Origin: an uncultured Rhodospirillales bacterium
Lineage (GTDB): Bacteria; Pseudomonadota; Alphaproteobacteria; Azospirillales; Azospirillaceae
Assembly: GCA_903927615.1 (NCBI GenBank)
Contig: CAIYNU010000080.1
Span: forward strand, 1-33,733
Direction of reading: 5' to 3'
Length of the DNA stretch: 33,733 nt
Shown: positions 21,289-31,780 of the stretch, piece by piece
Numbering within the stretch: position 1 is the stretch's first letter
Layout of the letters: each line of letters starts with the position of its first letter
Made by a program: the position numbers and the translations under genes
The notes under the pieces: generated by a model
The model's database searches: none
What the model saw: only the letters and a program-made list of their open reading frames with translations
Told to the model about the DNA's origin: nothing

Positions 21289-21333
21289 ATGTCCGGTCCC
21301 CTTGATCCGTGGCAGCGCCCATGGCGGGGGTAG
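21289..21333 (+). CDS. Short upstream ORF or true N-terminus of the GGDEF-EAL gene
   Basis: ATG at 21289 with a well-placed GGAG (21279-21282) opens a 14-residue frame, MSGPLDPWQRPWRG, ending in a TAG at 21331-21333. It is in a different frame from the following GGDEF-EAL gene. Adding one G to the GGGGG run before the TAG would fuse the two frames, giving ...PWRGVEDGNQPWF..., so this may be the real start separated by an indel. Confidence 0.4.
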   Translation: MSGPLDPWQRPWRG

Positions 21334-23516
21334 AAGACGGTAACCAGCCATGGTTTGTACCGATGAGGGTTGACGACGTGCCGGATGCCCTGCCCGACAC
21401 TGACTGGAGCGAGTCCGCAACCGCTTCGGAGGATGACGGTCGCTACCGCAGTATTTTCGAAAACGCCGTCGAAGGCATTTACCAGACCACGGTGACCGGC
21501 AGCTACCTGCGGGTCAACCCGGCGCTGGCGCGCATGTACGGCTACCAGGGGCCGGCGCAACTGATTGCCGGCCTCACCGATATCGCGAAACAACTTTACG
21601 TCGATTCCCAACGGCGCGAGGACTTTGCCCGGGCCATGGCGCGGGACGGTGTGATCAAGGACTTTGAGGCCCAGATTTACCGGCACGATGGCAGCGTGAT
21701 CTGGATCGAGGAGAATGCTCGATGCGTCCGCGATCACGCCGGACACATTTTGTATTACGAAGGCATGGTCACCGACATCTCGGCGCGCAAGGCCGCCGAG
21801 GAGCAGATTCGCTTGCTGGCCACGGTCTTCGACAGCGTCTCCGACGGCATCCTGGTCATCGACCGGGCGCTGACCATCTGCGCCGTCAACCCCGCCTTCA
21901 CCCGCATCACCGGCCTGCGTCGCCAGGACCTGATTGGCCAAGCCCCCCGGCTCTCGGCGCCGGGCTTCGAGGAGCGCGGCCTGATCGAGCGCATCTGCGC
22001 GCTTGCCGACGATACCGGCCATTGGCGGGGCGAACTGGGGTACGTCCGCCCGGAATACCAGCCCTTCGCCGCCTGGGTTTCCGTCACCACCGTGCGAAAT
22101 CCCGACGGCCGCACCGAATATTTTGTACTGGCCTGCTCCGACATCACCGACCGCAAGCAACAGGAAGATCGCATCCGCTATCAGGCGAATTTCGACGCCC
22201 TGACCAATCTCCCGAACCGTCGTTTCCTGCACGAACAGTTGGACCAGGCCATCCGCCTCGCGGCGCCCGGGCAAAAGCGGCTCGCGGTGGCCTTTCTCGA
22301 CCTTGATCGGTTCAAGCAAATCAATGATTCCCTGGGTCACCGCGCCGGCGACACCCTGCTCAAGCGGGTGGCGCGCCGTCTGCGCAACGCCAGTCGTGCC
22401 ACCGATATTGTCGGGCGTTATGGCGGTGACGAATTTGTAATGATCTTTCCCAATATCGACGACCGCTTTTCGGGATCCTTTCTGGCGGAAAAGCTCCTTT
22501 ATTCCTTCAGCGACCCCTTCCAACTGCCCGAGCGTGAGCTGTTTTGCACCCCCAGTATCGGCATTGCCTTTTACCCCGATCACGCCGACACGGCTGACGG
22601 CCTGATTCGCTGTGCCGACCTGGCCATGTATCACTCGAAGCGCGCCAGCCCGCGCCACTACACCCTATTTTCCCAGGAAATGCTGCAACAGTCGTCGCGA
22701 CGCCTGGACCTGGAGCATGACCTGCGCCACGCCATCCAGCGTGACGAATTCGTGATGCACTACCAGCCGAAATACGACCTCGAGACCGAGCGAATCGTGG
22801 GCGCCGAAGGGCTGGTCCGGTGGATGCATCCGTCAGGCGTGCTGATTTCGCCCGCCGAATTTATCCCCATCGCCGAGGAGACCGGCCTGATCGCGCAGCT
22901 TGGACAACTGACGTTGCGCAAGGTCTGCCAACAAGCCCAGGCGTGGCGCCAGGCCGGCCTGTTGTTGGATGGCATCGCGGTCAATCTGTCCCCCCGCGAG
23001 TTCCACGATGCCAACATTGTCCAATTGGTTCGGACCGTCCTGGACAATACCGGGCTGCCACCTGACTTCCTGGAATTGGAACTGACCGAAGGAGCCATGG
23101 TCGTCGACGTCGACCATGCCGTAGACACCTTGCGCCGGCTCAAGGGGCTAGGGGTCCGCCTCGCCATTGATGATTTCGGCACCGGTTATTCGTCGCTGGC
23201 CTATCTCAAGCGGTTTCCCATCGATACCCTCAAGATCGACCGCTCGTTTGTCCGCGACGTGGCGACCAATGCCACCGACACCGCGATTATCGACACCATC
23301 ATCGGCCTGGCCTCCTCCCTCGGCTTTTCGGTGGTGGCCGAAGGCGTCGAAACCATCGCCCAGGCACTGGTGCTGCGGGAGCGTAACTGCCGTTACGCCC
23401 AGGGCTACCTGATCTGTCGCCCACTGCCGACCGATGCCTTCGCCGAGCATGTTCGGGACGCCGAACATCACCCCAAACCCCTGCTGCCCGGTCGACCGGT
23501 CGCCGGGAAATCATGA
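21309..23516 (+). CDS. PAS-PAS-GGDEF-EAL cyclic di-GMP enzyme
   Basis: 735 aa from a GTG at 21309; ATGs at 21321 and 21363 are in frame, and the only good ribosome site belongs to an out-of-frame ATG at 21289. Two PAS domains occupy about 44-160 and 168-282. The GGDEF domain (about 290-455) keeps GGDEF at 372-376 and an inhibitory RxxD site at 363-366, five residues before it. The EAL domain (about 465-710) reads EGL rather than EAL at 500-502, with Arg504 kept, and has DDFGTGYSSLAYLKRFPIDT and the late AEGVET, which suggests retained metal ligands. It could both make and break cyclic di-GMP. No membrane segment is present, so it is cytosolic and PAS-sensed. Confidence 0.93.
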   Translation: MAAPMAGVEDGNQPWFVPMRVDDVPDALPDTDWSESATASEDDGRYRSIFENAVEGIYQTTVTGSYLRVNPALARMYGYQGPAQLIAGLTDIAKQLYVDSQRREDFARAMARDGVIKDFEAQIYRHDGSVIWIEENARCVRDHAGHILYYEGMVTDISARKAAEEQIRLLATVFDSVSDGILVIDRALTICAVNPAFTRITGLRRQDLIGQAPRLSAPGFEERGLIERICALADDTGHWRGELGYVRPEYQPFAAWVSVTTVRNPDGRTEYFVLACSDITDRKQQEDRIRYQANFDALTNLPNRRFLHEQLDQAIRLAAPGQKRLAVAFLDLDRFKQINDSLGHRAGDTLLKRVARRLRNASRATDIVGRYGGDEFVMIFPNIDDRFSGSFLAEKLLYSFSDPFQLPERELFCTPSIGIAFYPDHADTADGLIRCADLAMYHSKRASPRHYTLFSQEMLQQSSRRLDLEHDLRHAIQRDEFVMHYQPKYDLETERIVGAEGLVRWMHPSGVLISPAEFIPIAEETGLIAQLGQLTLRKVCQQAQAWRQAGLLLDGIAVNLSPREFHDANIVQLVRTVLDNTGLPPDFLELELTEGAMVVDVDHAVDTLRRLKGLGVRLAIDDFGTGYSSLAYLKRFPIDTLKIDRSFVRDVATNATDTAIIDTIIGLASSLGFSVVAEGVETIAQALVLRERNCRYAQGYLICRPLPTDAFAEHVRDAEHHPKPLLPGRPVAGKS

Positions 23517-23679
23517 CTTCGCCAAGAAAAAGGGCGCGACGGGCCGGTCTTCTTTCACGGTTCAGGCGTTGTACGGCGTGGTCCAGGATCGATAAATTGA
23601 TCTTCATAGACATTCATGGTTTTTCTGTAGGTTGACGCGCATGAGGTGGGATTGCGGTTGTCATACTGGCGAATGTCTG

Positions 23680-23713
23680 GATTTCCTTCGATTATCGAAA
23701 ATCGAAGGAAATC
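23680..23713 (-). terminator. 13-bp perfect stem-loop spanning the tonB stop codon
   Basis: GATTTCCTTCGAT (23680-23692) and ATCGAAGGAAATC (23701-23713) are exact complements around an 8-nt loop. The tonB stop codon (23692-23694, minus strand) lies at the loop edge, so the last codons of tonB form one arm. No T-run follows. It could terminate transcription between convergent genes or protect the mRNA 3' end. Confidence 0.6.
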
Positions 23714-24534
23714 GTAAAAACCAGTTCACCGGGATCGGCATCGGCTGGAGGTTGAGGGAAAGGTGACACGGCACGGACGGCTGCAACAGCCGATTGATCG
23801 AGGCTAGCGTTGCCACTGGTCCGTTCGACCGAGACAGAGATCAGGCTGCCATCGGGCGCGAGGGCAAAACTGACAAGCGTGGAGCCGCGAAAAGTCACAT
23901 TTCTTGGCTTATGGTGACTGATCCGCGCCCAAACCACCCGTCCATAGTCCTGAACGGTTTCACTCCGTGCTCGCGGCGATTGGCGAACAACGGGAGGGGA
24001 AGGCGACGGTGGAGCGGTTGTCACTGTCGGGGTCCGTGGTACGGGTGGAAGGCCGAGCACCTGCTCCGCCCTCGGCGGCGCAGGAGGCCCGTGTCGCTTG
24101 AGCGGTTTCGGCTCTGTCCGAGGCTTCGGCGGTGATGGTTTCGGTGGCTCTGGTTGCTGCACCACGGTTGGAGGCGGTGGCTCACGCGGAGGCGCCGGCG
24201 ACGATAGCGGTGACTCCATGGGAGGTGGCGGTTCGGGCGCGGGAGGCGGGGGTGACGGAGGGGGCTCTGTCGCAGGTTGAACGGGCTCCGGGGCAGCGGG
24301 ATTTGGGGGACTTTCTGGCCGGTCCGGAGGTGATGGGTCATCGATCATGCCAACACCATCGATCGTGATGAGATCTGGCGCCGTCACGGTATCGGAACCG
24401 AGCCAGACCTCCACCAGCGCAAAACTCATTAAGACGTGCAGTGCCAGAGAAAGGGTCAATCCCACGTAATATCGCCGTCTCACGAGACCCGGAGGCGATC
24501 CTCGACGCCAAGCCGATAGGGTTTCGACCGGCAT
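23692..24534 (-). CDS. tonB: Energy transducer TonB
   Basis: 280 aa from the ATG at 24534. A single membrane anchor lies near residues 22-45 (YYVGLTLSLALHVLMSFALV). A long periplasmic Pro-rich region with PEPPKPSPPKP repeats spans roughly 65-190. The C-terminal TonB domain includes YGRVVWARISHHKPRNVTF, VSFALAPDGSLISVSVER and SLDQSAVAAVRAVSPFPQPP. TonB transmits proton-motive energy to outer-membrane receptors. It follows the receptor gene on the same strand, separated by 94 nt that hold a strong palindrome. ExbB and ExbD are not in the window, so they must come from elsewhere. Confidence 0.9.
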   Translation of the reverse strand: MPVETLSAWRRGSPPGLVRRRYYVGLTLSLALHVLMSFALVEVWLGSDTVTAPDLITIDGVGMIDDPSPPDRPESPPNPAAPEPVQPATEPPPSPPPPAPEPPPPMESPLSSPAPPREPPPPTVVQQPEPPKPSPPKPRTEPKPLKRHGPPAPPRAEQVLGLPPVPRTPTVTTAPPSPSPPVVRQSPRARSETVQDYGRVVWARISHHKPRNVTFRGSTLVSFALAPDGSLISVSVERTSGNASLDQSAVAAVRAVSPFPQPPADADPGELVFTISFDFR

Positions 24535-24567
24535 GGTCAATGCGGCATCTTTCAGGTCACATCGCGC

Positions 24568-24599
24568 CTGCCCCAGGATGAAGCTTCATCCTGGGGCAG
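24568..24599 (-). repeat. 32-bp perfect palindrome between receptor and tonB genes
   Basis: CTGCCCCAGGATGAAG (24568-24583) is followed directly by its exact reverse complement (24584-24599). In RNA this gives a very stable stem with a 4-nt loop. No T-run is present on either side. It probably tunes expression of tonB relative to the receptor, or acts as a terminator or a processing site. Confidence 0.75.
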
Positions 24600-24628
24600 T
24601 GGAATGAGAGGGGTTTCAGTGACGTTGA

Positions 24629-26899
24629 TTAGAACTTCACGGTCATGCCGACGTTGAACGATCGCCCCGGCGCAGGCACTGGACCCGGAGATGCCATTCT
24701 ATCGTTGTCATAACGCAAATCCTTGATGTCGACGCCACCCAACGGGTCATAATACTGCTTGTTGAGCAGGTTATCGATCCCGGCGCTGACCGTTATGTTC
24801 TGCCAGGTATAGGCGGTGCGAAGGTTGAGCAGGGCGAAACCAGGCGTGGTCGGTTCCGAGCGCGTGCTGTCAACCAGATCCTTGGAGCCAACCCACCGCA
24901 CTTCGAATGCACTGCTCCAACCGTCGAGGTGATGCACTAGACTTACTTTGCCGTTGATCGGCATCATGTGATAGAGATTCTGGTTGTCGTCGAGGCGTAT
25001 GCCCCGCACCCAGCCGATATTGCCATTGACGTCGAAGTCGCCATAGCCGGTGTCGTGGGCAATCGCCTTGCTGGCAGAGATATCGAAGCCGAACATCTCG
25101 GCATCGTGGTTGTTAAACTGGAGTACCGTATAGGGCATTCCCATACTCAGACGATGGCCGTTGAGAGACGAAATGGGGTCGGCATCGATATAGTTCTGCA
25201 CATAGGTGTAGTATGGCGTCACTTTTACGCCCCAGTCCTTATGTGCTGCATCGTGCCAATCTGCGGACGCGCTGAACGTATTTGCAACCTCGGGCTTCAG
25301 CGCGTTGTTTCCGACATACATATTGTCGTCGCCAAACCAACCAATCATGCCCGAAGACATCATTCCGGACGACCAGGAATAGCGTTCATACAGGTTGGGT
25401 GAGCGGGTCTTGCGCGCATAGCCGGCCTCGTACGTTGATTCGTCAGAGGGGGTATAGCGAGTGAGCGCAGTGACATCGAAATTCGCATCCACATGGCTAT
25501 GGTTCATGGCATTGAATGCGGCAGCGTCAGTACCGTAGTATTGTCCCATGCCACTGCCCGTGTTGTAACCCTGGACATTACCGGTATCCATGATCACGGT
25601 GTCGTTACGCACACCCAACAGCGACGTCCATTGTGAAGACCATTGACGTTCCCATTCCGCGTAGGTTCCCAGTCGGTTTCGCTCGCCGCCGTTAATGTTC
25701 CAGAAGGTATTCGGCCCCATCATCGATTTTGTTGTAAACGTCGCCGGCCACCAATCGTCCAAAGTTTGACGATTGAATTCGTTGCCGATGCGTAGGGTAT
25801 TGCCATTCGACAGCGGAATTTCCGCTTTGACTGAGTAGCCCAAGTCGTGTCCGTGTGTCAGCATCGGCATCCCGGGCAGAAACTGGCCCGTGGCGGGGTT
25901 GATGGTCAGCGGCCCACCACCCCACTGATAGAGAAAGTTCATCTCGTGATGAACTTGACGCCAGTAGATTTCGCTTTGCAGATTGCCCCAATCAAAATCA
26001 TGATTGTAGCGGGCGTTGATGTGTTGGCTCATATTGAAGGTCATGTCCATGGGCTGGTTGACGAATCCTTCATATGGCGAATAGTCAACACCGCCACGAA
26101 CCGTAAGCTGGTCGTCGGCGCCACGCACCGAGAACACCCCTTCTCCACTGTAGTTCTCATAACGCGTGGCATGGACGACATCGCCTTTGCCATCACTGTA
26201 GTCCCGGGCATGGGCCGCAGTACCGTTGACGCCAAAGCTGTACGTGTCGGTTGCCATCGTGACGTCGGCGGCGCCGGTGACCGAGCTATTGATACTGCGA
26301 AAAAAGCTCGAAATTTCGCCTTGAGTGAGCAGGCCCTGGCCGGGCTGGGCGAACACCGGGGCTTTGGGATCGATCCTGATTGTGCCGCCGATGCTGTCGC
26401 CGCCCTGACTGACCGGGGAGAGGCCCGCCCACACCTCGGCCTCGCCCACACGGGCCGGTGTGACGTAGGACAGTACCGGGTTCATGTGATTGGGGCAGGC
26501 TGCGGAGACCGGCACGCCGTCGAGCAGGGTTTTTAGACGGTCGTCCGCCATGCCATGGATCACCGGCAGCGATGAGATACCGCCGCCCGTGGCGACGCTG
26601 ACGCCGGGCAGACCGAGCAGCATCTTGGCGGTGTCATCGGTGGACAGCCGACTGGCGGACAGACCGTTGCCGCTGACCGTCGAACTCGACAGCGGTGCCG
26701 TCAGACCGGAACCGGTGTCGACTGAAATCGGAGGTAGCGGGGTGGCGCCGTTGGCTGACGGCGTTGCCTGTTGTGCCGATGCGGCTTCAGGCAGCGCCAG
26801 CGCCAAAGCAATCACGGTCCCCGATAGGAGTGCGGTCGAGCCAAGCAAGCTCCGCATGAGGCGGGGCCTGTAGGAGTTGGCAGAATTCAAATCCGACAT
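24629..26899 (-). CDS. TonB-dependent receptor, probable copper receptor (OprC-like)
   Basis: 756 aa from the ATG at 26899, with GGAG 8-9 nt upstream; the frame runs on to 26977. A signal peptide ends near LPEAASAQQ. The plug domain follows, with LPPISVDTGSGL and SSLPVIHGMADDRLKTLLDG. The barrel ends in FNVGMTVKF, the usual aromatic C-terminus. CPNHM at 135-139 matches the CxxxM motif, and HEM at 318-320 the HxM motif, that together bind copper in Pseudomonas OprC at similar positions. Several Met-rich and His-rich loops (MPMLTHGH, MMSSGMIGW) support metal handling. It lies between a DUF2946 gene and tonB on the same strand. Copper specificity is a motif-based inference. Confidence 0.88.
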   Translation of the reverse strand: MSDLNSANSYRPRLMRSLLGSTALLSGTVIALALALPEAASAQQATPSANGATPLPPISVDTGSGLTAPLSSSTVSGNGLSASRLSTDDTAKMLLGLPGVSVATGGGISSLPVIHGMADDRLKTLLDGVPVSAACPNHMNPVLSYVTPARVGEAEVWAGLSPVSQGGDSIGGTIRIDPKAPVFAQPGQGLLTQGEISSFFRSINSSVTGAADVTMATDTYSFGVNGTAAHARDYSDGKGDVVHATRYENYSGEGVFSVRGADDQLTVRGGVDYSPYEGFVNQPMDMTFNMSQHINARYNHDFDWGNLQSEIYWRQVHHEMNFLYQWGGGPLTINPATGQFLPGMPMLTHGHDLGYSVKAEIPLSNGNTLRIGNEFNRQTLDDWWPATFTTKSMMGPNTFWNINGGERNRLGTYAEWERQWSSQWTSLLGVRNDTVIMDTGNVQGYNTGSGMGQYYGTDAAAFNAMNHSHVDANFDVTALTRYTPSDESTYEAGYARKTRSPNLYERYSWSSGMMSSGMIGWFGDDNMYVGNNALKPEVANTFSASADWHDAAHKDWGVKVTPYYTYVQNYIDADPISSLNGHRLSMGMPYTVLQFNNHDAEMFGFDISASKAIAHDTGYGDFDVNGNIGWVRGIRLDDNQNLYHMMPINGKVSLVHHLDGWSSAFEVRWVGSKDLVDSTRSEPTTPGFALLNLRTAYTWQNITVSAGIDNLLNKQYYDPLGGVDIKDLRYDNDRMASPGPVPAPGRSFNVGMTVKF

Positions 26900-26943
26900 G
26901 AAAATCTCCAGAAATTGGGATCGGCAAGCACGCGCGTCTGCTG

Positions 26944-26970
26944 TGCTCTTAGGCGTCAAAAGCCTGAGCA
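26944..26970 (-). other. Bulged stem-loop between DUF2946 and receptor genes
   Basis: TGCTC-TT-AGGC (26944-26954) pairs with GCCTGAGCA (26962-26970) through nine base pairs with a two-base bulge and a 7-nt loop. It lies in the 123-nt gap ahead of the receptor gene and may modulate read-through. Confidence 0.35.
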
Positions 26971-27022
26971 GCGACAACGCGAGGCCGTTCCGTTTAGACC
27001 GTTAGAGTTGTTGTTGAGTTTG

Positions 27023-27442
27023 TCAGGCCGCCAGCAATGGTGGCGCCCGAGATTGACAGCCGACCCGGAAATGCGTTTTGGGTATGACACCGGCAGGAAG
27101 CGTCAGCCGATGCATCGCCTCCCCAGTCACCGGTAACGGCACCACCTGCGATTGGGGAATCGCCGCATACCCTGCGTGGGCCAAGCAGAATGGGCAGGCC
27201 GTTCTGTGGGGGTGTTGAGGAAGGGGAATAGACCGGCCGTCACGGTCAGGGGCTATCTGGAGGGAGCCATCCGGCGTACAGATCGAACCCATGGTGTCGT
27301 CATCAGCTAAATCGCCACTGATCACCATGGGCATGAACAGTAAGGTGAGCAACGCTGCAATCGCAACCCAAGCCACCGCACCCCGACACTTCCATCGGAG
27401 CCGCTTGATCCCAGTCGCTTTTGGTTTGGCGCCGTCGCTCAT
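27023..27442 (-). CDS. DUF2946 family membrane-anchored protein
   Basis: 139 aa from the ATG at 27442, with GGGG upstream. One membrane segment, AVAWVAIAALLTLLFMPMVI (about 24-43), is followed by an extracytoplasmic part with HRTACPFCLAHAGYAAIP, in which the CPFC pair with nearby His is the mark of DUF2946, and the end carries CQSRAPPLL, also common in the family. DUF2946 genes are often found with copper receptors and other copper-response genes; their function is unknown, and metal binding through Cys and His is plausible. It would be the first gene of the copper operon with the receptor and tonB. Confidence 0.75.
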   Translation of the reverse strand: MSDGAKPKATGIKRLRWKCRGAVAWVAIAALLTLLFMPMVISGDLADDDTMGSICTPDGSLQIAPDRDGRSIPLPQHPHRTACPFCLAHAGYAAIPQSQVVPLPVTGEAMHRLTLPAGVIPKTHFRVGCQSRAPPLLAA

Positions 27443-28011
27443 GGTACCCCGGCCTTGGTCCGCTGCGTCGTCATTCGGTAAGGATGCTCACCCCGGATAT
27501 TCACCTTTCCTAGATCCTGAAAGGCCATGCTCGGAATGAATCTGTCAACAACGGTGGAACAGTTGCAGGCAACCCAAATGCCCTTTGATCCCCCCTGTTG
27601 CCGTACGGCCATCGTTGTCAAGGTGACAGGGGCGGCGGGACCGGCGGGTCGGTGCGGTCCGCTCAACGCCATGTGTTCGCACGAAGGATGGCAGACCCAT
27701 TGCCAGCGCCACTCTGACGCTGCCAGCGCCAACCACCCCTGGCACAAACGGGAAAGCATTGTGTGCCGCGCGGGCCGGCAGGTACACTTGACCATCGCAG
27801 CGGGCCGCTCCCGACGACCGGTGGTCGCCAGACAAGAGACCGACCGGACAACGGTCGGCCACCCTGGTGAACCGGTTGATGCAGGGGACCATGATCCTGG
27901 AAGGGGCAACCTCTCAACCGCCGCAACACTCTCGACACTAGAGCATCCAATTGAAACAACACCCATGCTCCGACAGGGAACCCATTTTCACCCCACAGGT
28001 TGAGGAACAAT
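27443..28011. other. Intergenic region between divergent genes, no clear gene
   Basis: About 570 nt between the DUF2946 gene and the AhpD-like gene. Overlapping frames exist on both strands (27527-28003 plus, 27439-27966 minus), but none shows a known motif or a supported start. TTGACA occurs on the minus strand at 27548-27543 without a good -10. The region probably holds the promoters of both divergent units and perhaps a decayed gene. Confidence 0.4.
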
Positions 28012-28467
28012 ATGAATCAGCGTCTTGATCTTACAAAAGTATCCCCTGAAGGGTACAAGGCAATGCTGGGTGTGCATTCGTACGTACAAAATAGTGGCTT
28101 GGGACTCGGGCTGCTGGAACTCGTAAAGATGCGCGTCTCACAAATCAACGGCTGTGCATTTTGCATTGCTATGCACGTTCCACTAGCCCGCAATAATGGA
28201 ATTAGCGACGATCAATTGCATCTTCTTGCGGCATGGCGCGAGGCGCCGATTTATAGCCAAAAGGAGCGAGCCGCGTTGGCCTGGGCGGAAGCTCTGACGC
28301 GCCTGACCGAAGGCGACGTGTCCGATGAGGTTTACGCCGAGATGCGTAAAAATTTCTCGGAAAAGGAGACGGCTGATCTTTCCTTCGCCGTTGCTGAAAT
28401 CAATGCATGGAACCGGCTGATGATGTGTACGCGCACCCCGCCTCAGCTTGGCAGCGTCTCGGCCTAA
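28012..28467 (+). CDS. Carboxymuconolactone decarboxylase/AhpD-like protein
   Basis: 151 aa from the ATG at 28012, with TGAGGAAC upstream. The helical core includes GLLELVKMRVSQINGCAFCI with the redox pair Cys48 and Cys51 and the following His55, the AhpD-type active site, then SQKERAALAWAEALTRLTEG and FSEKETADLSFAVAEINAWN. Such proteins reduce peroxides through the cysteine pair; others in the family decarboxylate lactones, but those lack the CxxC. It is a single-gene unit divergent from the copper operon. Codon use is somewhat more AT-rich at the 5' end. Its physiological substrate is unknown. Confidence 0.92.
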   Translation: MNQRLDLTKVSPEGYKAMLGVHSYVQNSGLGLGLLELVKMRVSQINGCAFCIAMHVPLARNNGISDDQLHLLAAWREAPIYSQKERAALAWAEALTRLTEGDVSDEVYAEMRKNFSEKETADLSFAVAEINAWNRLMMCTRTPPQLGSVSA

Positions 28468-28771: not shown

Positions 28772-31700
28772 TCAGGTCGGCTTCCTTCCATCAGCAATCC
28801 GTCTCGCCTCCGAAATGACCATAGGAAGGAGTGAACGGACATCATCACAGGCCTGTTTGGTCTGATCAAGGTTGCCGCTCTCTGCTGATGCCTGAAGAGT
28901 CTTGGCGGCCTGTGCAAGCTGCCTGGCGCCGAGGTTCGCTGAGACCCCGTTAAGATCGTGCGCTTGTATTGCTATTTGGCGTAAATTGCCTTCGATTAGA
29001 AGATGGTCAAAACCATTTATAGCACTTTCATTTGCTTGTGCAAATTCACGCATAAGCTCTTTTAGCAGTTCGCTATCGCCCATAACCCGATCAAGCACAG
29101 TTTTAGTATCGATAGGTGACAAATGATCAGAACAATGCTCAGACTTATCTACGCAATATTTCGCCAGAACGCTGGTAAGAACCTGCCAATCGATGGGCTT
29201 AGCAACCAAATCGCTGATCCCCGATTCTAGATAACTTTCGCGGTGCTCAACCATTACGTCGGCGGTCAGCGCGATAATGGGTATCTGTCCCCGTGGCGGC
29301 GGCATTTCGCGAATGACTCTGGTCGCCTCTTCACCGTCCATCTCAGGCATCTGCATATCCATCAATACAGCATCGAACTCTTCGTTTTTCATCGCCTTCA
29401 CAGCTTCAAGACCATTCTTGGTTATGACGACGGCGTGTCCTAATTTCTGGAGCATCGCCTTCACCAGGCGCTGGTTGATCACGTTATCTTCAGCCAGGAG
29501 GATGCGCAGATGTCGAGCAGGAACGCTTACCGACGCCTTCGGAGGCTCGGCCGCAGTGTTCGGCGCACCGGCAGTCGCAATCTTGAAGGGAAGCACCACA
29601 CGGAAGCATGAGCCTTGGCCGACGGCGCTCTCAACGGCAACCTCTCCACCCATGAGGCCGACCAATCGCTTGACGATCGCGAGCCCAAGCCCGGTGCCTC
29701 CGAACCGGCGGGTATTCGACATGTCGGCCTGGGAGAAGGTTTGGAACAGTCGCGCCACTTCATCCGGGTTCATGCCAATGCCGGTGTCCTTAATGTCGAT
29801 TGTCACCATGGCATCGGCGATCCCCTCGATGTTCATTGAAAGACTAACGGATACGCTTCCTGATTCAGTGAATTTTATCGCATTGCTGACTAAATTATGA
29901 AGAATCTGCCTGAATCGAACTGGATCACCGACAAGTTTGGCGGGAACCAAATCTGACTTATTCAAATCAATTGATAACCCTTTTGCCGTTGCGGTGCCGC
30001 GCCAGACATTGACAACATTTGCGGCTATTTCTATCCAGTCGAATTCGATCGAGTCAATCGTAAGCTTGTTGGCTTCAATCTTTGAAATATCCAGAATATC
30101 ATTAAGAATCACAAGCAAGGATACGGCTGCCGTGCTTAACGTTTCTAAATACGTTCTCTGTTCTTCATTTGTATTTGTCTTTTTTAGCAAATCCACCATT
30201 CCCAGCACCCCCGTGATGGGGGTTCGAATCTCATGGCTCATGTTGGCAAGGAAGGCGCTTTTGGCTCGGCTAGCCGCCTCCGCCCGTTCACGAGCCGCCT
30301 TAAGTTCAAGCTCGGTGTTATATTGCTCGGTGGTGTCGTGGATGTTCACCAGCAGATGGGCCTCATGCTTCAGAAAGAAACGCGAGAAGGTCACATCCAT
30401 GTGGAAGGTCTTGCCGAAGGTGGTGGTGATCGGGTCGCGGATGCTCTGGGGAACACCGGTGGCGAGACTGATCTCGGCCGCTTCGATCATTCCGCTCTCG
30501 CGCCAGGACGCGAGGGTCCGGAAATTCTGGACCAGCAGTTGATCGGCACTGCCGCCGCTGAAGCGGCAGGCGGCTGGATTAACCAGGATGCAGGCACCAT
30601 CGCTCTGATAGACGAGAATGCCCTCATGGGAGGCGCCGATGATCGCGGCGTTGAAGTGGGAAAAGTATTCGAGTTCGGCATTAGAGTTGTTCAAGTCCAT
30701 CTGGGCCGCATCGCGCTGTTTCAGCACCAGAGCGGACGCCCGGTTGACCACAACAAGGTATGCCGCGGCACCGGCGGCAAGCACCAGAAGCAAGGTTAGA
30801 GCACCCAACAGGATCGTGGCGTATTTGTCGATCACGTCGTGCAGATCGAATTCGTCCATCCGCCCAGGATGAACCCGTAGGCGCAACATCACAGCTTCGA
30901 CCTGAGAATAATCGCCAGGGGGAGAAAAACCATAAAATCCTGCTGCCGTGGCGATCGGATCCCCGGGCTCCAGGGATAGCATTGCCAGACTGACGGCTTT
31001 CACCAGGGTTTCAGGGGTCTTGCTGTCGCTGCAAATGGGCCACTCTGGATAGAGAGAGGTGGACAGTATCTGGGGATAGTCGCCCCGTGGCTGTTGGTTG
31101 ATGATTTTTATATCGGACAGCTTGAGTTTACCTTCGGCGGCCATGGCTTCCAACACCCCGGTACGCACAAAGGCCGCATCGACGGTGTGGTCCATGAGGG
31201 CCTGAACCGAGCGGTCGTGGGGCATGCCTAAATAGCTGACCTTGGGAAAGGGGATGCCCCGACGGCGCATCTCCCAAAGCTGCATCAGGTTGCCACCAAG
31301 GGATTGTTCCGATGGCGAGGCGACCGAACGCCCGGTCAGATCGTCCAGCCGATTGATGTCGGAACGGTCGGCGCGGGTGACGATGACGCCGCCGAAACTG
31401 GTCACCGGATGCCCGTTTATCTGCGGCATCACCGTCAGAATCGGCGCCAAGCTGACCTGATTGCGTAACAGGACAAAATGTTCCGGATTGGTAAAGACGA
31501 AATCAAGCCGCCCTTCTTTTACCGCCTGATCCAGATCCGGATAGTTCATGGGGACCACGCGGAACTCGTGTCCGGGTATGCTGCGGGACAGATGCTCCGT
31601 CAAGGGAGTCCATTGCCGAAGCGTCTGGTCGATGGGGCGGAACGAGAGCACACCGATCAGAACCGTCTGCGCCGCCGCCGCAGGGGCCAGGGTGGCCAGC

Positions 31701-31780
31701 AGGATCAAGCATACCCTTAAGATCAAACCCAGATGCGCCCCCCGGCAGGCCGCAACGAAAAGAGTACGATAATCCGACAT
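28772..31780 (-). CDS. Hybrid histidine kinase with PhnD/TtrS-like sensor, REC and HPt domains
   Basis: 1002 aa, start ATG 31780 with GGATGG upstream. A signal or anchor helix (17-37) leads to a periplasmic binding domain (about 40-310) whose opening, LIGVLSFRPIDQTLRQW and LDQAVKEGRLDFVFTNPEHF, resembles the PhnD-type sensor of TtrS. The second membrane helix is 319-345 and a PAS-like domain is about 370-485. The kinase core has His516 in MSHEIRTP, an N-box near NLVSNAIKF, DTGIGM and GGTGLGLAI. The receiver has AEDN and phospho-acceptor Asp808. The HPt domain has His941 in AHDLNGVSANLGA. It is a complete phosphorelay in one chain. The ligand is unknown; TtrS itself senses tetrathionate, but that cannot be assumed here. 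Confidence 0.93.
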   Translation of the reverse strand: MSDYRTLFVAACRGAHLGLILRVCLILLATLAPAAAAQTVLIGVLSFRPIDQTLRQWTPLTEHLSRSIPGHEFRVVPMNYPDLDQAVKEGRLDFVFTNPEHFVLLRNQVSLAPILTVMPQINGHPVTSFGGVIVTRADRSDINRLDDLTGRSVASPSEQSLGGNLMQLWEMRRRGIPFPKVSYLGMPHDRSVQALMDHTVDAAFVRTGVLEAMAAEGKLKLSDIKIINQQPRGDYPQILSTSLYPEWPICSDSKTPETLVKAVSLAMLSLEPGDPIATAAGFYGFSPPGDYSQVEAVMLRLRVHPGRMDEFDLHDVIDKYATILLGALTLLLVLAAGAAAYLVVVNRASALVLKQRDAAQMDLNNSNAELEYFSHFNAAIIGASHEGILVYQSDGACILVNPAACRFSGGSADQLLVQNFRTLASWRESGMIEAAEISLATGVPQSIRDPITTTFGKTFHMDVTFSRFFLKHEAHLLVNIHDTTEQYNTELELKAARERAEAASRAKSAFLANMSHEIRTPITGVLGMVDLLKKTNTNEEQRTYLETLSTAAVSLLVILNDILDISKIEANKLTIDSIEFDWIEIAANVVNVWRGTATAKGLSIDLNKSDLVPAKLVGDPVRFRQILHNLVSNAIKFTESGSVSVSLSMNIEGIADAMVTIDIKDTGIGMNPDEVARLFQTFSQADMSNTRRFGGTGLGLAIVKRLVGLMGGEVAVESAVGQGSCFRVVLPFKIATAGAPNTAAEPPKASVSVPARHLRILLAEDNVINQRLVKAMLQKLGHAVVITKNGLEAVKAMKNEEFDAVLMDMQMPEMDGEEATRVIREMPPPRGQIPIIALTADVMVEHRESYLESGISDLVAKPIDWQVLTSVLAKYCVDKSEHCSDHLSPIDTKTVLDRVMGDSELLKELMREFAQANESAINGFDHLLIEGNLRQIAIQAHDLNGVSANLGARQLAQAAKTLQASAESGNLDQTKQACDDVRSLLPMVISEARRIADGRKPT

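Follow-up and report, generated by a model that had tools for sequence, protein, structure and literature searches.

A putative copper-shortage operon with a CruR-type leader, an OprC-like receptor and TonB in an uncultured Rhodospirillales bacterium

Organisation of the locus

The window analysed here is the whole 33,733-nt stretch of DNA, which comes from an uncultured Rhodospirillales bacterium. ORFs and domain matches place three genes head-to-tail on its minus strand, encoding a DUF2946 protein, a TonB-dependent receptor and TonB (Table 1), as the initial annotation had described. The DUF2946 ORF scored 48.1 bits against PF11162 (cut-off 23.7), the Plug and TonB_dep_Rec_b-barrel domains of the receptor scored above cut-off, and the TonB reached 51.6 bits against TIGR01352 (cut-off 27.1). 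The latter is built from an N-terminal membrane segment with SxxxH (recognised by eye), a proline-rich linker and the TonB C-terminal domain. Receptor residues are numbered with the ATG at 26899 as the start, upstream of which the mechanical ORF extends to a TTG at 26977.

The 123-nt gap between the first two genes is C/A-rich and unstructured in its 5′ part and holds no intrinsic-terminator-like site. The inverted repeat between the receptor and TonB has a fold energy of about −30 kcal/mol over the surrounding 51 nt and is absent from the list of terminator-like sites; it might give the receptor and TonB differing levels. Four sigma-70-like sites were found in 23500–28100 (shuffled mean 1.6), none of them upstream of the leader on the leader strand, and an Rfam scan of 23400–28200 gave no match at gathering scores.

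Table 1. Features of the three-gene set and of its surroundings, in window coordinates.
Feature	Position	Strand	Remarks
GGDEF-EAL protein	21309-23516	+	adjoins the set
TonB	23692..24534	-	ATG at 24534; mechanical ORF from TTG at 24540
Perfect 16-bp inverted repeat, receptor-TonB interval	24568..24599	-	without T tract
TonB-dependent outer-membrane receptor, OprC-like, separate branch	24629..26899	-	756 aa from ATG at 26899
HEM codons, receptor His318 and Met320	25940..25948	-	OprC His323 and Met325
CPNHM codons, receptor Cys135 and Met139	26483..26497	-	OprC Cys143 and Met147
Leader-receptor intergenic region	26900..27022	-	123 nt; putative Rho termination zone
DUF2946/CruR-type upstream ORF, gene 1 of the set	27023..27442	-	139 aa; PF11162
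RAPP codons, DUF2946 residues 132-135	27038..27049	-	putative ribosome-arrest motif
CPFC (CXXC) codons, DUF2946 residues 83-86	27185..27196	-	putative copper-sensing motif
Small carboxymuconolactone decarboxylase/AhpD-like protein	28000-28467	+	adjoins the set
Hybrid sensor kinase	28772-31780	-	farther from the set

The receptor and its predicted copper site

As reported for OprC, the copper ligands are Cys143, Met147, His323 and Met325 (PMC8610252). The initial annotation had likened CPNHM at residues 135–139 and HEM at residues 318–320 of the receptor to the two halves of this site, at nearly the same spacing. Both motifs lie at these positions, and the Cys-to-His distance is 183 residues, compared with 180 in OprC. 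In a profile alignment with 6fok, Cys135, Met139, His318 and Met320 fell on the four OprC ligands. Moreover, Met284, Met344 and Met346 aligned with OprC Met286, Met341 and Met343 (OprC numbers counted from the alignment), which are described as belonging to the silver-binding track methionines (PMC8610252). The CxxxM-HxM site and part of the methionine track are thus common to the receptor and OprC/NosA (PMC8610252; TIGR01778).

OprC was the only match of the receptor in a single-sequence PDB search (E up to 0.001). With a profile of 37 relatives, it was the best PDB match over the full length (5.4e-46), and the next family, PhuR, matched over the C-terminal part (1.1e-20). The predicted receptor model (mean pLDDT 83.2, pTM 0.83) returned OprC in the first 28 rows of Foldseek and at ranks 1–13 of VIA, where the margin was narrow (Z 39.2–42.2 for OprC, 38.6 for FecA). 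OprC is therefore the closest match in sequence and fold, but the structure alignment shows only ~20% identity, and the receptor scored 103 bits against the TIGR01778 equivalog, below the cut-off of 472.45. That model was matched by all 37 scanned members of the branch, the best at 6.1e-49 (~168 bits by conversion), far under the cut-off of 472. The receptor probably works like OprC, yet stands outside the OprC equivalog and is not OprC proper.

At E up to 1e-30, the receptor was found in 30 of the 82 genomes of the order, the window genome included, with many of the rows coming from one genus. Cys135 and Met139 were kept in 28/28 covering rows, and His318 and Met320 in 30/30. We also scanned named genomes with patterns that excluded the copper site; at least 583 of at least 591 matched stretches encode a relative, of which the best 80 were kept. 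These overlap in part with the genomes of the order-level survey and are mostly metagenome-assembled; their median pairwise identity is 45%, and 53 remain below 70% identity. All four ligands were unchanged in 80/80 of these best relatives, the residues between them varying except for Asn137, which is invariant. Met284, Met344 and Met346 were likewise invariant in this set, and in total one Cys and seven Met did not change. Within the best 80, 48 of the 756 positions are invariant, the four ligands among them; the chance of four preset positions all being invariant is ~1.4e-5, or ~0.003 when matched for residue type. Profile alignment, fold match and residue invariance together back the prediction, made from the sequence, of an OprC-type copper receptor.

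We must also consider whether the cargo is a copper chelate, as for CrtA, or a different compound, for instance heme, with the receptor making only partial use of its OprC-like site. Heme-receptor models gave 125 and 118 bits, slightly above the 103 bits of the copper model, although far under their own cut-offs; PhuR came second in the PDB profile search, with a match covering the C-terminal part; and CrtA, as described in PMC12914433, is a case of a CruR operon importing chelates. We nevertheless regard such a cargo as unlikely. In the same source, the CrtA family is described as having no conserved Cys or Met and a PepSY_TM gene downstream in more than 75% of loci, whereas the best 80 of at least 583 relatives of our receptor share one invariant Cys and seven invariant Met, and the third gene here is TonB. 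The published description thus sets the receptor apart from the CrtA family. A heme receptor was likewise rejected, since OprC is the nearest solved structure in sequence and fold and all of the heme scores are far below cut-off. The branch to which our OprC-like receptor belongs looks undescribed and unnamed: a literature search found no description of it, and it may be included in the supplementary tables of Roy et al. and Ozturk et al.

The DUF2946 leader and a candidate copper switch

The initial annotation had seen a testable role in copper handling for DUF2946, a proposal that has been overtaken. Work on DUF2946 (CruR) in 2022 showed that this upstream ORF responds to copper and regulates a downstream TonB-dependent transporter (PMC9426467). 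Mutations in B. pertussis showed that leader translation, RAPP and CXXC each control the downstream transporter via Rho-dependent termination, the CXXC being required for the copper response (PMC9426467). As described for a purified system in vitro, arrest on CruR depends on RAPP and is abolished when its arginine is changed (PMC12992588). In the window, the CPFC motif noticed initially is present, and a RAPP end, overlooked at that stage, sits four residues ahead of the stop, at a distance of exactly 45 residues from the CXXC. The window has 131 ORFs that reach 80 aa; DUF2946 is the sole carrier of a C-terminal R[AG]PP among them, and 11 contain CXXC. Since both motifs, and their spacing of 45 residues, match Bordetella CruR, gene 1 is most likely a copper switch rather than a copper-handling protein.

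The CruR-CrtA-CrpH operon of Bordetella pertussis offers the closest comparison (PMC9426467, PMC12914433, PMC13038864). As described there, it opens with a DUF2946 leader of the same CXXC-RAPP spacing; a long gap follows the leader in both cases (162 bp in B. pertussis, 123 here), and a TonB-dependent receptor comes second. The receptor is CrtA there and the other branch, with an OprC-like site, here; the third gene encodes a PepSY_TM protein there and TonB here; and the regulation is demonstrated in B. pertussis, whereas in our locus it is predicted. We also note that oprC of P. aeruginosa likewise follows a cruR homolog (PMC9426467).

The same gene order recurs among the relatives. All 28 order-level relatives with upstream DNA have a same-strand ORF with CXXC and R[AG]PP ahead of the receptor; 26 of these leaders were found by script and two (L100, L101) by inspection of the frame, L102 being at a contig edge. 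The L101 leader lies 626 nt ahead of an alignment that begins at receptor residue 143. Six leaders have RGPP in place of RAPP (L078, L089, L094, L096, L097, L100), and the spacing is 44–46 residues, with L098 ambiguous (42, 45, 48). Among the best 80 of at least 583 relatives, a CruR-type leader was found in 24 loci by pattern (spacing 42–48) and in 31 by profile. The profile was built partly from the 24 pattern loci, which leaves only 7 additional loci as pattern-independent finds. Each of the 31 has a same-strand leader no more than 433 nt ahead of the receptor; further profile matches were a second leader 1503 nt upstream in L118 and a weak one on the other strand in L143. As a control in the 80 loci, the pattern occurred in 24/396 same-strand ORFs within 2.5 kb upstream and in 1/2935 other ORFs. 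The profile saw no CruR-type ORF in the other 49/80, a few of which have little upstream DNA. In Azospirillum brasilense, loci L117, L119 and L124 contain both leader and receptor, and L119 and L124 contain TonB as well.

Other leader types were observed in the wider set. In four Acidovorax-like loci (L166, L167, L168, L171), the leader ends in QAPP, not RAPP, with CPVC ahead. In five others (L104, L108, L120, L131, L169), a RAPP or RGPP tail is kept but CC...C, CC...H or C...H replaces CXXC, which suggests other metal-binding patterns on a common arrest design. Thirteen Chlorobiaceae members (L112-L115, L121, L122, L125-L127, L133, L141, L154, L175) have another conserved leader upstream of the receptor, probably membrane-anchored, with CE[KR]...C-x-GHC and a tail of IDHPP plus two residues. 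It was found by pattern in 10/13, once 1421 nt away, and the other three have ID-x-PP tail variants; one such leader gave no match against Pfam.

DUF2946 might instead be a periplasmic copper chaperone that acts as a mature protein together with the receptor. The hydrophobic N-terminal segment, seen by eye in its translation, and the CXXC would suit an exported copper binder, and CutF was at first taken for a chaperone (PMC9426467). However, the conserved R[AG]PP end, its fixed spacing and the fixed first position of the gene are hard to account for in a chaperone, and B. pertussis CruR was undetected by proteomics and gave no complementation from another locus (PMC9426467). We therefore set the chaperone aside as very improbable.

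We consider it likely that the set is a copper-shortage operon, in which a CruR-type leader switch precedes an OprC-like receptor and TonB. By analogy with the studied relatives, the three genes would share a single transcript. When copper is scarce, the ribosome would stall on the nascent RAPP end and shield the message from Rho, so that RNA polymerase could continue into the receptor and TonB genes. Ample copper would bind the nascent CXXC and relieve the stall, and Rho would then terminate transcription within the 123-nt gap. The receptor may move copper along the invariant methionines to the Cys135-Met139/His318-Met320 site, from where it would be passed inward with TonB. As the leader probably senses copper ahead of the receptor and TonB, uptake would occur only under copper shortage. 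In terms of the Rho step, the Rho site of B. pertussis CruR begins between CXXC and RAPP (PMC9426467), whereas the strongest C>G stretch here (~27313–27132) lies over the CXXC codons and not in the CXXC-RAPP interval. Cytosine is also in excess, though less markedly, from ~27118 on into the gap, and a stronger C-rich window lies within the receptor-TonB transcript; base composition thus argues only weakly for Rho.

CutF of Rhodobacter capsulatus is described as another copper-sensing nascent leader with a proline-rich end (PMC9973294), which the Chlorobiaceae leaders of the receptor branch resemble by eye. It differs from our leader in the opposite sign reported, in an mRNA stem-loop over the next ribosome-binding site and in the control of a multicopper oxidase (PMC9973294). 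An operon of that sign, with copper strengthening the stall and turning the downstream genes on as described for this CruR-like leader in Rhodobacter (PMC9973294), is the least probable reading of our locus, given that a copper uptake receptor should be off under excess copper, that the long gap and the CXXC-RAPP layout fit CruR, and that P. aeruginosa oprC, behind its cruR homolog, is down-regulated by copper (PMC9426467).

TonB and its energising partners

According to the initial annotation, the set includes an energiser of its own. In the order-level survey, TonB lies downstream of the receptor in 20 of the 28 relatives with sufficient downstream DNA. It is missing in L075, L077, L079, L080, L084, L089, L095 and L098; L086, at a contig edge, is outside the count. 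TonB-like ORFs, some of them non-adjacent, occur in 20/80 of the wider loci (best 80 of at least 583). The claim of a dedicated energiser stands for TonB, no protein of the genome other than the window copy matching either of two TonB models, but is not borne out for ExbB/ExbD. Neither gene is in the set, and the genome (assembly 98.4% complete) has a single ExbD-family match. The region holding it is presumably the tol-pal cluster, recognised by eye, and there is no ExbD-family match besides it. Perhaps TolQR drives the window TonB.

Among the five genomes of the genus, the receptor and a TonB match occur in the same three; in G047, which is one of these, there are also two more TonBs and four ExbD-family matches. 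From this co-occurrence, and from its being the genome's only TonB match, the window TonB plausibly serves the copper receptor. It may be shared by the two other TonB-dependent receptors of the genome, on G000:C94 (L012) and G000:C11 (L013). Each of these is preceded by a small secreted-looking protein, one of which is weakly YfiR-like (DUF4154), just under cut-off, and they have a histidine kinase or a chemotaxis-type signalling protein as neighbour, which would suit sensors better than importers.

Other CruR-type leaders and the wider reading

The genome of the window has three DUF2946 genes, and CXXC and RAPP are present in all three. On G000:C27 (L010), a CruR-type leader precedes cydA by 860 nt, an interval that contains a cydP-like gene, and cydB follows cydA. 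The third leader (G000:C6:195739-196059, L011) is followed by a 296-aa protein of no assigned function, CopC and CopD; it has 21 residues beyond RAPP, compared with short tails in the others.

CruR-type leaders also stand before cydA, on the same strand, in eight relatives that were picked for a DUF2946 match near cydA (L185-L192). Six of the eight have at least two leaders, the nearest at 324–600 nt and often of the CLFC...WPRGPP type; G012 has a lone leader 813 nt from cydA, and in G049 a long ORF separates cydA from a single leader at 1844 nt. Among 26 close cydA copies (at least 57% identity, 24 genomes), 9 have a leader within ~1.9 kb among the matches listed, and the other 17 have none among those matches. 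A literature search found no report of cruR with cyd; such cases may be among those tabulated in the supplements of Roy et al. and Ozturk et al.

CruR-type ORFs before both the receptor and cyd suggest a single copper-shortage programme. Cytochrome bd is copper-independent, as is well established (also described in PMC13038864), which would make a shared switch attractive, with the reservation that the gap in the window genome is long. In its widest form, the proposal is that the several CruR leaders of a genome form one such programme, which, without a dedicated transcription factor, switches on import together with cydP-cydA-cydB. Its import branch would be the unnamed OprC-like receptors, whose leader, in other phyla, would have been exchanged for copper-sensing arrest leaders of different kinds. 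We offer this broader proposal tentatively, as somewhat less than an even prospect.

Leaders of this type have been described before; what appears new is the combination and the receptor branch. Our analysis places the DUF2946 gene in its now-known role of a predicted copper-reading leader and ties it to a broad receptor branch, in which the OprC-type ligands are unchanged in all of the best 80 of at least 583 relatives. To our knowledge, few outer-membrane copper importers are known, and the OprC-like branch, which spans Rhodospirillales, Chlorobiaceae, Magnetococcales and beta- and gammaproteobacteria, would thus considerably widen their list. Of most interest as a lead is the link to cyd, which opens the question of one nascent-peptide switch that rewires respiration under copper shortage. 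If true, respiration would leave copper while the cell gathers it.
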